Part shown: one piece after another, positions 1 to 28,600 of the stretch
How the letters are laid out: each line of letters starts with the position of its first letter
How positions within the stretch are numbered: position 1 is the stretch's first letter
Assembly (NCBI GenBank): GCA_001604385.1
Contig: LVBK01000021.1
Span: forward strand, 1-64,000
DNA length: 64,000 nt
Reading direction: 5' to 3'
Source of the DNA: Spirochaetales bacterium Spiro_09
GTDB lineage: Bacteria > Spirochaetota > Spirochaetia > Treponematales > Treponemataceae
Notes under the pieces: generated by a model
What the model was told of the DNA's origin: nothing
The model's input: the letters and a program-made list of their open reading frames with translations, nothing else
Database searches by the model: none
Program-made: the position numbers and the translations under genes

Positions 1-158
1 TTGTCCATAACAGCACCGACGCCGTCTTTACCGCGGACTTCATGGATCGCATGGATCTTGTTGCAGTAAAAAAGGATGCGTTCGGAAAGGGTTGTCTTTC
101 CCGAGTCAATGTGGGCGCTGATACCGATATTCCTCATCTTGGAAATATCAATAGCCAT
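1..158 (-). CDS. fusA: Elongation factor G, N-terminal fragment (mitochondrial-like type)
   Basis: The gene runs off the left edge; only the first 52 codons are present. EF-G is the GTPase that translocates tRNA and mRNA on the ribosome. The translation shows the P-loop AHIDSGKTT about residues 15-23, followed by [10 protein letters not shown] and a Met-Asp pair. Canonical bacterial EF-G has HDG-AATMD at this place; the [10 protein letters not shown] version is typical of mitochondrial EF-G1 and the related spirochaete/planctomycete proteins. The ATG at 158 follows GTGAGG at a good distance. It has its own promoter (230-258) and a leader of about 65 nt. Confidence 0.93.
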
Positions 159-25304: not shown

Positions 25305-26567
25305 TCAGTGCGTTTTAATCCATTCCGAAAGACGCTCGGCGATGGATGCCGGCTGTTTGCTGTCTTTTGGTGCAGAGGTTGCTTCTATTAGCCATGGCAT
25401 TATTATTTCCGCCTTCATACTTTTCCAGTTATAGGGCAGGATACGGGGCGCCGAAAGGGATTCTGCGGGCGGAATATGTCCCAAAAGGGCCGGATAGAAG
25501 AGGGGGAATATTTTTTCGTTGACCGGTCTAAGGGATGAAAAACCTCCGGCTATCCCGAAACTGTGAGCAGCAATACCCATGGCAAGACTTCTTTCAAGCA
25601 TGCTCCGCTGGTTCTTTTCGTTGAAGAACCAGATGATAAATTGCTCTGCGGCTTCCAGATTCTTGCTTTTCCGGGGAATTCCCAAGTAGATAATTTCATC
25701 CTGGACCGGTACGTTGCCATTTCGTGATATCCAGCGAAATTCTAGGTTTGCCATTTTCTCCTGTGGGAGCACGAAGAGTTTTTCGCTGGGAATCATTGAA
25801 AAGAGGTTCCTTCCCTTAAGAACAAGCGTGTATGGCGGATCGTATAAATATTTGAACTCGAAATCGTCCTCGGCGCGGACTGAGGTGTTTGCTGTCTGTG
25901 TCCAGTCGCGCAAATAGTGAATCAGCTCATCCGCAGCCTGTTGATTCCAATTAAATAAACGCGTTGATTCTTCGAACCGTACGTTGAAAAGACGGGTTGT
26001 CAGGTACAGAAACTCCGGCTCCCATCGGGGGGAAAAGCCCATTCGGGTGTGGATACCGTTTTTTTCTTCATTAAAGGATTGCCCGATGGACCTAATTTCT
26101 TCGACTGATATGGTAAAGTCTCCGGGAATGCGTGTTTGATGTTCAGGCGAAAAAATGATGGCTGGCAGGTTGAAACTGACTGGCAGCAGAAATTGCCGAC
26201 CTTTAATGTGACCGAGTTCCAGAATTGAGGGGTAAAAATTGCCCGAATTTATGCGAAGCTCGTTGAAAAGGTAGTCGACCGGGACCAGCCGATTTCTCGG
26301 TTTCTCTGATTTCAGCCAGGGGCCAATGACAATGTCTGGGGGATTGACGGCATTCACCAGAGCTTCTGCGGGATTCGCGCGGTATTCCACATGAACCCGG
26401 TATTTACTCTGGCTATTGTTGAACGCTTCCGCATATACGGCAAATTCGCTCCTGTCAGTCCATATGATAGCGATATGCGATTTTTTCGGTCCGCAAGACC
26501 ATATGGTTGCCAGGCAGATGCCGGCAAGAAGACACCGGATTATCTTGATGCTCTGAAAGTTATGCAT
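25305..26567 (-). CDS. Orphan extracellular solute-binding lipoprotein
   Basis: The 420-residue product has a type II signal peptide with Cys at residue 25 (TIWSC) and the two-lobe pattern of family 1 (sugar/oligosaccharide-type) ABC binding proteins: an early strand HIAIIWTDRSEFAVYAEAFN, YRVHVEYRANPAEALVNA, PDIVIGPWL, EIIYLGIPRKSKNLEAAEQF, and FFNEKNQRSMLERS. No permease or ATPase gene is adjacent, so its transport partner is elsewhere or it is a sensor. The promoter (26574-26602) ends 6 nt before the ATG and there is no Shine-Dalgarno sequence, predicting a leaderless mRNA. Confidence 0.75.
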   Translation of the reverse strand: MHNFQSIKIIRCLLAGICLATIWSCGPKKSHIAIIWTDRSEFAVYAEAFNNSQSKYRVHVEYRANPAEALVNAVNPPDIVIGPWLKSEKPRNRLVPVDYLFNELRINSGNFYPSILELGHIKGRQFLLPVSFNLPAIIFSPEHQTRIPGDFTISVEEIRSIGQSFNEEKNGIHTRMGFSPRWEPEFLYLTTRLFNVRFEESTRLFNWNQQAADELIHYLRDWTQTANTSVRAEDDFEFKYLYDPPYTLVLKGRNLFSMIPSEKLFVLPQEKMANLEFRWISRNGNVPVQDEIIYLGIPRKSKNLEAAEQFIIWFFNEKNQRSMLERSLAMGIAAHSFGIAGGFSSLRPVNEKIFPLFYPALLGHIPPAESLSAPRILPYNWKSMKAEIIMPWLIEATSAPKDSKQPASIAERLSEWIKTH

Positions 26568-26573
26568 GGGTCA

Positions 26574-26602
26574 ACTGTATGGGCGCACCCGCCGATTGTC
26601 AA
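26574..26602 (-). promoter_or_regulatory. Leaderless promoter of the solute-binding lipoprotein
   Basis: TTGACA (26602-26597), 17 bases, TACAGT (26579-26574) on the minus strand; the -10 ends exactly 6 nt before the ATG at 26567. The -35 box overlaps the -35 of the opposite promoter by 5 bases. Confidence 0.7.
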
Positions 26603-26624
26603 TCCCGTATTCTGCGGGTATAAT
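26596..26624 (+). promoter_or_regulatory. Leaderless promoter of the 26631 gene
   Basis: TTGTCA (26596-26601), 17 bases, TATAAT (26619-26624), ending exactly 6 nt before the ATG at 26631. Initiation would fall on the A of the start codon. Confidence 0.75.
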
Positions 26625-26630
26625 CAACAA

Positions 26631-27116
26631 ATGATGATCAAAGATTCGGCAATTGCCGAATGCGTGCAAAAGCTGGCCGACCATTTCAATACTAATATCG
26701 CAACCCGTTTTCTGCGCCCCCTGTTGGCCGGAATTCTGGCAGATAATGAATTATCCCGCCATATTTCCGATTTGACCGATCATGCGGATATGTTCAGTTC
26801 CCAGGGGACGCATATCGACGAGCTGTACCAACAAATTATCGCGATGGCGCGTTTTGTCTATCTTGTGCGAATCGATGTTCTTCCGAACATTCGCCATCTT
26901 GGCGGCTCTTCATCGGCGCAGGATGTCAACAAGGTGTTCCGCGATATGGCCGTGAATAATTTCGGCGCGAATATGAAGGTGCTGGCGGATATCGTCAACG
27001 AGCTGTATGTCCTGACCATCAATTATGACCGCCTGAACTCCCCCAAGGGAGGCCGTCCCGTATACAAGGGAATACCGGCCCTGGACGAGATCGGCAGATA
27101 CCTGATCAGCAGGTAG
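26631..27116 (+). CDS. Helical soluble protein of unknown function
   Basis: The 161-residue product (MMIKDSAIAE...) is predicted to be nearly all helical (QKLADHFNTNIATRFLRPLL, DELYQQIIAMARFVYLVRID, ANMKVLADIVNELYVLTIN). It has no signal peptide, membrane segment or motif I can name. Two ATG codons stand in tandem (26631, 26634) with no Shine-Dalgarno sequence; the TATAAT box 6 nt upstream supports a leaderless mRNA that begins at the first ATG. The frame continues upstream but into the opposite gene's promoter. It is transcribed away from the solute-binding lipoprotein gene. Confidence 0.7.
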   Translation: MMIKDSAIAECVQKLADHFNTNIATRFLRPLLAGILADNELSRHISDLTDHADMFSSQGTHIDELYQQIIAMARFVYLVRIDVLPNIRHLGGSSSAQDVNKVFRDMAVNNFGANMKVLADIVNELYVLTINYDRLNSPKGGRPVYKGIPALDEIGRYLISR

Positions 27117-27228: not shown

Positions 27229-28539
27229 TTATTTGACCATTTCCTCTGCCGTGGCGAAGATTTGGCGGAAAACAGACTCAAGCTTTTCGGTATCCACCGA
27301 CGAAAACGCCACGCGCAGGTGATTCGCGTCAATCGCAATGGTTCCGATACCGTGCTCATGCAGCAGTTTTACCCGAAGGGCTTCCGCCCCCACACCACGA
27401 CACTCCATGCTCATAAAATAGCCCGAGTTGAAGGGGAGCGCCTTCAGAACCGGATGCTGCTTGTGTGTATCGATGAATTTGCGTACTACCCGATAGCGCT
27501 CTTCGAGCAGTTTTCTCAAAACTTCTTTTTCGCCTTCGGTTCTCGGGTCATCCATCAGTTTCAGCATGACCGACTGGGAGGGAGTTGCCGCGCACGATAC
27601 CGACGAACGGATTGCGCCCATCAGTTTTTTTACCAACGCGTCGTATTGAGCGGTATTCATCCCCTTCGAACCAAAGGTAAGGAATCCGGTTCGAAGTCCC
27701 CATACGTAGTCTTCCTTGGTCGGTCCATCGATTTTAACCGCAAGGATTCTTTCGTGCGCGTTCGCAAGCCAGGCGAACAGAGACTGGCGCTCAATATTGT
27801 CTTCGTAATCCAGCCCGAAATAGGCATCATCGCACCATACCATGACATCGGTGCCTGCCTCGGCGGTTTCCTGGATTATGCCGATAATGGCGCGCGCTTC
27901 TTCCTTCGTCGGGGTATAGCCTGACGGATTTTGCGGAAAGTTGAGGAGCATGCGGATGGCTCCCTTTTGCGCTTCCTTTTTGACTGCGGCGCGAAAGCCT
28001 TCCACGTCAAAACCGTCTTCCTTGAATACGGGAAAGCCGGTAAGGGTTGCGTTGCGGCGGGCTTCCACGATCAGTACATAATTATCCCAGGCCGGCGCGC
28101 CGGTGAGAAGAACAATTTCTTCGCCAAGAAAAAGGTCTGCCAGGTAGGAAATACCCGCGGTCAAGCCAGGAACCAGAACCGGAACCGAAACTTCTGCCGA
28201 GCCGAGGGTCGGGTTCTTTTCCCTGATAGCCTGGAGCCATCGCTTTCTCAGATCATCATTACCCGCGGTTGGGGCATACGCGACAGCTTCTCCTGCGCTC
28301 AAGGTGGGAAAATGATCCTTCAGGGGCGAAAGTACGACCGGTTTACCGTCCTTGACGGCCATGCCGATAGTGGCGTTCGCGGTTTTTCCGTGAATTTTTG
28401 CTTCTCCGCTCTGTGCTATAATTCCCTTGGGAAAATACAGCCGTGTTCCGAGATCCGACAGGAGCCGTCCGGCGATGGTTGGTGCCAGGATGGCATTGAG
28501 TTCCTCTGCTAAAGGGTTAATGCGTTGATTGTTAGCCAT
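27229..28539 (-). CDS. Class I/II PLP-dependent aminotransferase
   Basis: The 436-residue product has the fold type I pattern: APTAGNDDLRKRWLQ near the N-terminus, LVPGLTAGISYLADLF, the Asn-Pro motif NFPQNPSGYTPTKEE, the Asp-Tyr pair WCDDAYFGLDYED and Lys in AVKIDGPTKEDYVWGLRTGF, with Arg-binding 'HLRVAFSS' at the end. The substrate cannot be told; aspartate or aromatic acids are possible. The ATG at 28539 is used because the promoter -10 ends 9 nt upstream and there is no Shine-Dalgarno sequence; the alternative at 28557 would be TTG. Confidence 0.85.
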   Translation of the reverse strand: MANNQRINPLAEELNAILAPTIAGRLLSDLGTRLYFPKGIIAQSGEAKIHGKTANATIGMAVKDGKPVVLSPLKDHFPTLSAGEAVAYAPTAGNDDLRKRWLQAIREKNPTLGSAEVSVPVLVPGLTAGISYLADLFLGEEIVLLTGAPAWDNYVLIVEARRNATLTGFPVFKEDGFDVEGFRAAVKKEAQKGAIRMLLNFPQNPSGYTPTKEEARAIIGIIQETAEAGTDVMVWCDDAYFGLDYEDNIERQSLFAWLANAHERILAVKIDGPTKEDYVWGLRTGFLTFGSKGMNTAQYDALVKKLMGAIRSSVSCAATPSQSVMLKLMDDPRTEGEKEVLRKLLEERYRVVRKFIDTHKQHPVLKALPFNSGYFMSMECRGVGAEALRVKLLHEHGIGTIAIDANHLRVAFSSVDTEKLESVFRQIFATAEEMVK

Positions 28540-28548
28540 GGTATCTAT

Positions 28549-28578
28549 CGTATACAACGTTCATTTACCGGTTGTCAA
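28549..28578 (-). promoter_or_regulatory. Near-leaderless promoter of the 27229 aminotransferase
   Basis: TTGACA (28578-28573), 18 bases, TATACG (28554-28549) on the minus strand, ending 9 nt before the ATG: leader about 3 nt. The -35 overlaps the -35 of the opposite moxR promoter by 5 bases. Confidence 0.55.
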
Positions 28579-28600
28579 TTGCCGCGAAGGCACGTACAAT
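28572..28600 (+). promoter_or_regulatory. Promoter of the moxR-bat operon
   Basis: TTGTCA (28572-28577), 17 bases, TACAAT (28595-28600). The predicted leader is about 30 nt and carries GCGGAG before the moxR ATG. Confidence 0.65.

Follow-up and report, generated by a model that had tools for sequence, protein, structure and literature searches.

The intergenic region between two divergently transcribed genes of a Spirochaetales genome poses the question of how two promoters can be served by a single −35 box, and whether such an overlap operates as a switch between the genes. The window comprises 64 000 nt of the contig, and the preliminary description of this DNA had reported TTGACA-17-TACAGT and TTGTCA-17-TATAAT promoters lying back to back, with a five-base overlap of their −35 hexamers and each −10 box placed exactly 6 nt ahead of its ATG. 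Upon re-reading of positions 26565–26633, this account of divergent promoters with −35 boxes overlapping in TTGTCAA proves accurate, with the exact geometry borne out on both sides (Table 1). The hexamers overlap at positions 26597–26601, and the plus and minus promoters match the consensus at 11 and 10 of 12 bases, respectively; amongst the 11 promoter-like sites found within 18 kb, the former ranks first and the latter ties for second. The predicted starts, at 26567 and 26631, are about 64 bp apart, and the −10 boxes are separated by 45 bp. The nine-base sequence ATTGTCAAT has ATTGACAAT as its reverse complement and so is symmetric at all but the central position, which makes it an odd-length pseudo-palindrome.

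Table 1. Positions of the promoter elements and genes at the divergent locus
Feature	Positions	Strand	Remarks
Plus −35	26596-26601	+	TTGTCA
Plus −10	26619-26624	+	TATAAT, 17 nt past −35, 6 nt ahead of ATG 26631
Minus −35	26602-26597	-	TTGACA
Minus −10	26579-26574	-	TACAGT, 17 nt past −35, 6 nt ahead of ATG 26567
Common near-palindromic −35 core TTGTCAA	26596-26602	both	51/67 paired loci vs 1/27 unpaired
Family-level extension TTGTCAATCCCG	26596-26607	none	Near-invariant, 13 family loci
Lipoprotein-like gene, 420 aa	25305-26567	-	ORF; predicted leaderless start 26567
Helical protein, 161 aa	26631-27116	+	ORF; predicted leaderless start 26631

A second TTGTCAA is found in the window at 28539–28600, between an aminotransferase gene (minus strand) and a moxR gene (plus strand). 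Its plus side displays a clear TTGTCA-17-TACAAT, and the minus side offers only TACGAT at a poor spacing of 20 nt, 7 nt ahead of the ATG at 28539, making this a weaker candidate for a common −35 layout.

That both promoters would be leaderless, as originally described, is in keeping with the habits of this genome, which were assessed using 688 kb of its stretches together with pattern searches. The distance from the −10 box to the ATG for sigma70-like sites preceding open frames peaks sharply at exactly 6 nt, with 14 sites at this distance compared with no more than four at any other (in 688 kb chosen regardless of promoters). Similarly, the pattern TTGACA-16..18-TANNNT-5..7-ATG has 25 matches in the whole genome, versus none for the reversed control. 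Thus, the 6 nt seen on both sides is the standard leaderless geometry of the genome, and the predicted starts conform to it. Leaderless genes have been reported from Spirochaetes, and TA-led leaderless bacterial genes carry TANNNT about 10 bp ahead of the start codon (PMC3160421). Both genes resemble these in having TANNNT ahead of the start codon, the first T of each −10 box being 12 bp from its ATG; they differ in that the survey classifies single genes, whereas the present locus is a back-to-back pair with one −35.

The gene labels previously applied are correct in part. The plus-strand product is indeed helical and without a family: its structure model is confident (pLDDT 91.3) and all-helical, and comparison with Pfam, NCBIfam and solved folds (PDB) yielded no match. 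A DNA-binding fold was considered for this protein and dropped, as fold comparison gave no significant match. The protein occurs across the order, with nine residues invariant among 24 sequences. The label of solute-binding lipoprotein is less secure, in that the match to SBP_bac_1 (Pfam; E 0.0022, 18.5 bits) falls below the cut-off of 26; the product weakly resembles the solute-binding proteins of ABC transporters, and no sequence relative was found in the PDB at E 0.1. Orthologues of the plus gene belong to Treponema and to Spirochaetales metagenome-assembled genomes (MAGs), the named examples including Breznakiella and Gracilinema; the closest come from Spirochaetales MAGs and from one assigned to Treponema sp. 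The host belongs to the Spirochaetales, and is uncultured and Treponema-like.

The sequence, geometry, conservation and recurrence of the site are observed; we infer its start sites, exclusion and division of polymerase, and consider it probable that two leaderless genes are served here by one compact divergent promoter, in which one common dock would divide polymerase and no on/off switch is involved. TTGTCAA would act as one sigma70-type site, read as TTGACA towards the lipoprotein gene and as TTGTCA towards the helical-protein gene. In both orientations, sigma region 4 is expected to contact one and the same stretch of DNA, and only one promoter complex could therefore form at a time. Established knowledge of how polymerase engages promoters underlies this predicted exclusion, and steric considerations make it likely that the two promoters exclude each other at the binding step. 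The centre base would provide the consensus for one side only, that of the lipoprotein, and the helical-protein side would offset its weaker −35 by a better −10, keeping both promoters usable. The likely outcome is expression of both genes, with polymerase divided at the common dock. The mutually exclusive switch put forward in the preliminary description was a steric argument and is not upheld here, for in three congeners (L143, L144 and L146) the plus gene has a separate −35 of its own. In five bidirectional promoters of Escherichia coli, basal activity was too low for competition, and one direction was repressed only once the other had been substantially activated (PMC12825309). As competition there appears only under strong activation, the present site is read as a dock that may divide polymerase, and not as a demonstrated switch.

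With regard to conservation, 94 orthologous loci had sufficient upstream sequence, and in 67 of these the lipoprotein gene adjoins the plus gene divergently. TTGTCAA lies between the genes in 51 of the 67 paired loci, and hence the layout recurs when sought in related genomes, the cultured Breznakiella homolactica (L153) amongst them. Amongst these 51, a minus −10 (TANNNT) is found at 15–18 nt in 49, with the minus start codon a further 5–8 nt past it in 44; the hexamer doubles as the −35 of a leaderless plus promoter in 32, and both sides are leaderless from one box in 30. Column comparison within two separate groups reveals that the spacers drift, whilst TTGTCAAT and both −10 boxes are kept. 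The palindromic core reported earlier is therefore retained in orthologues as the seven bases TTGTCAA, which withstand the refutation proposed in the preliminary description (absence of the palindrome from orthologous loci), whereas the nine-base version is not retained: the outer A (26595) of ATTGTCAAT is G in the family of the host and C elsewhere. Base composition predicts about 0.001 two-sided leaderless layouts per genome, even with loose spacing, and at least two are observed in the host genome, on C11 (the present locus) and C63. The common −35 is not a product of chance.

The arrangement is also encountered well beyond this gene pair. The fixed geometry ANNNTA-16-TTGTCAA-16-TANNNT has 104 matches in 59 genomes of the order, versus six for the reversed pattern, although the matches include orthologous loci and the 104 are therefore not independent events; within the genus the counts are 24 and 0. 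When one promoter was kept and the other −10 was slid so that the gap became 10 or 24, 19 and 11 matches remained, about a third of the 19 appearing to represent one orthologous locus. A first count from the host's own DNA (eight of 385 TTGNCAA sites with a common −35) was biased, because most stretches had been chosen for leaderless promoters, and was replaced by these whole-genome counts with controls. Further sites in the host genome separate an isochorismatase-like gene from RNase Z and a NUDIX gene from a thioesterase gene, and another precedes secA.

Several of these sites merit individual description. At G000:C63:76341-76409 (in L090), the isochorismatase-like and RNase Z genes have a common TTGTCAA, and the spacing is leaderless for each of them. 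At G000:C3:28615-28674 (in L091), the leaderless promoter of secA has its −35 in common with a divergent −10; this block, AGGGTAGAATTCATTTTC...GCTTGTCAAC...TTTTAGTAGTAT, recurs by sequence, near-identically, in most congeners, and is conserved beyond what promoter function would need. Another block, of the form ATTATAG...GCTTGTCAACGA...TTCATGNTA, is repeated in different families of the order (G045, G048, G028, G001, G006, G037, G040 and others).

Where the partner is not adjacent, TTGTCAA is present in only one of 27 loci. In a neighbour-less Treponema group, TTG and the −10 of the plus gene are often preserved, and the CAA half has decayed, giving TTGCAA, TTGTAA or TTGTAT; decay of precisely this half once the partner is absent is what dual use of the box predicts. 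An uncorrected Fisher test relating the heptamer to the presence of an adjacent partner was set aside, as shared ancestry overstates its significance. Only two independent contrasts fall on well-supported branches of the tree, and with so few independent events the association is suggestive and not significant.

Amongst the alternatives, the one that fares best is pure compaction, in which leaderless genes would require little DNA between them, the promoters merely overlap, both are weak and exclusion is without consequence. We regard this as possible but doubtful. In L143, L144 and L146, which form a supported clade, additional DNA intervenes between the boxes and the plus gene has its own −35 (TTGCCA or TTGCCT) 17–18 nt ahead of the −10 (that of L144 being judged by eye), and the minus promoter is unchanged. 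Having separated the promoters, these congeners indicate that −35 sharing is dispensable, though widely kept, which agrees with compaction, as does the low basal activity of the five E. coli promoters (PMC12825309). Against it, several Treponema lineages have a longer plus leader with a Shine–Dalgarno sequence and still retain the common box (e.g. L173, L175 and L197), such that space is not minimal.

A further observation on the dock that would divide polymerase concerns the balance between its two sides. None of the paired loci carries TTGACAA (read on the plus strand), in which the centre base would be exchanged, the 16 that lack TTGTCAA having been checked; the lipoprotein side therefore always has the consensus TTGACA wherever the box is common. 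Conversely, the plus −10 is better than the minus −10 in 24 of 32 loci, equal in eight and worse in none, a count inflated by shared ancestry. We read the better plus −10 as a putative compensation that would leave both directions usable.

A regulated switch is a less probable explanation, and we hold it to be unlikely: a transcription factor on the asymmetric TTGTCAATCCCG would block or favour one orientation of polymerase, thereby selecting the gene. Its appeal lies in the CCCG extension, which is near-invariant across the 13 family loci and persists in L143 and L146 although the plus promoter there no longer uses the box; moreover, TTGTCAATCCCG is mostly locus-specific and usually present as a single copy per genome. 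Yet no dyad lies outside the −35 core, the extension does not persist beyond the family, no candidate regulator came to light, and fold comparison of the helical protein matched no DNA-binding structure. The possibility that TTGTCAATCCCG is a general extended −35 was rejected, given that there is usually one copy per genome and that two of the three other copies in the host genome lie inside long open frames. CCCG is not accounted for by promoter function, which counts against the dock reading, and a regulator site is possible. A broader proposal, that in Treponema-like spirochaetes the near-palindromic −35 is selected for inverse coupling of divergent leaderless pairs at several loci per genome, with a regulator on TTGTCAATCCCG setting direction here, strikes us as improbable. 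Finally, that only one promoter is real, with the other reflecting a symmetric hexamer that matches by chance, is very improbable, since both −10 boxes, the spacings and the 5–8 nt start distances are kept over 30 loci, and the slid controls drop five- to nine-fold.

As to known systems, bidirectional promoters are defined by divergent starts 7–25 bp apart with a −10 in common (PMC10268837). The E. coli and Salmonella examples (Warman et al. 2026, PMC12825309; PMC10268837) resemble the present locus in that the symmetry of a core element lets polymerase bind either way, as it would here; they differ in that their −10 is common, with starts 7–25 bp apart, whereas here it is the −35, with starts ~64 bp apart. 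By the definition of Warman et al. the locus thus lies outside the class, its −35 being common and its starts falling at 26567 and 26631. A further likeness is to the EcoRV and CfrBI restriction–modification systems, in which divergent genes have overlapping polymerase sites; the overlap couples transcription by competition, under control of a system-encoded C protein (PMC5333194). The five-base −35 overlap places the present locus amongst such overlapping divergent polymerase-binding sites. The differences are that a C protein controls theirs, whilst family and fold comparisons identify no DNA-binding protein encoded by the present pair, and that the C transcript of EcoRV, unlike those predicted here, has a leader. 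Phrase searches of the open-access literature, which are weak evidence, returned no direct precedent for a common −35. We call the geometry new (a −35 in common, with starts ~64 bp apart) and the kind known (overlapping divergent promoters).

The bacterial bidirectional promoters described in the accessible literature share a −10, and a recurrent, conserved class that shares a −35 would extend the idea of promoter symmetry to the second core element. The natural series found in these spirochaetes, in which the box is common, the partner is lost or the promoters have separated again, offers a test of whether polymerase competition is selected or tolerated.
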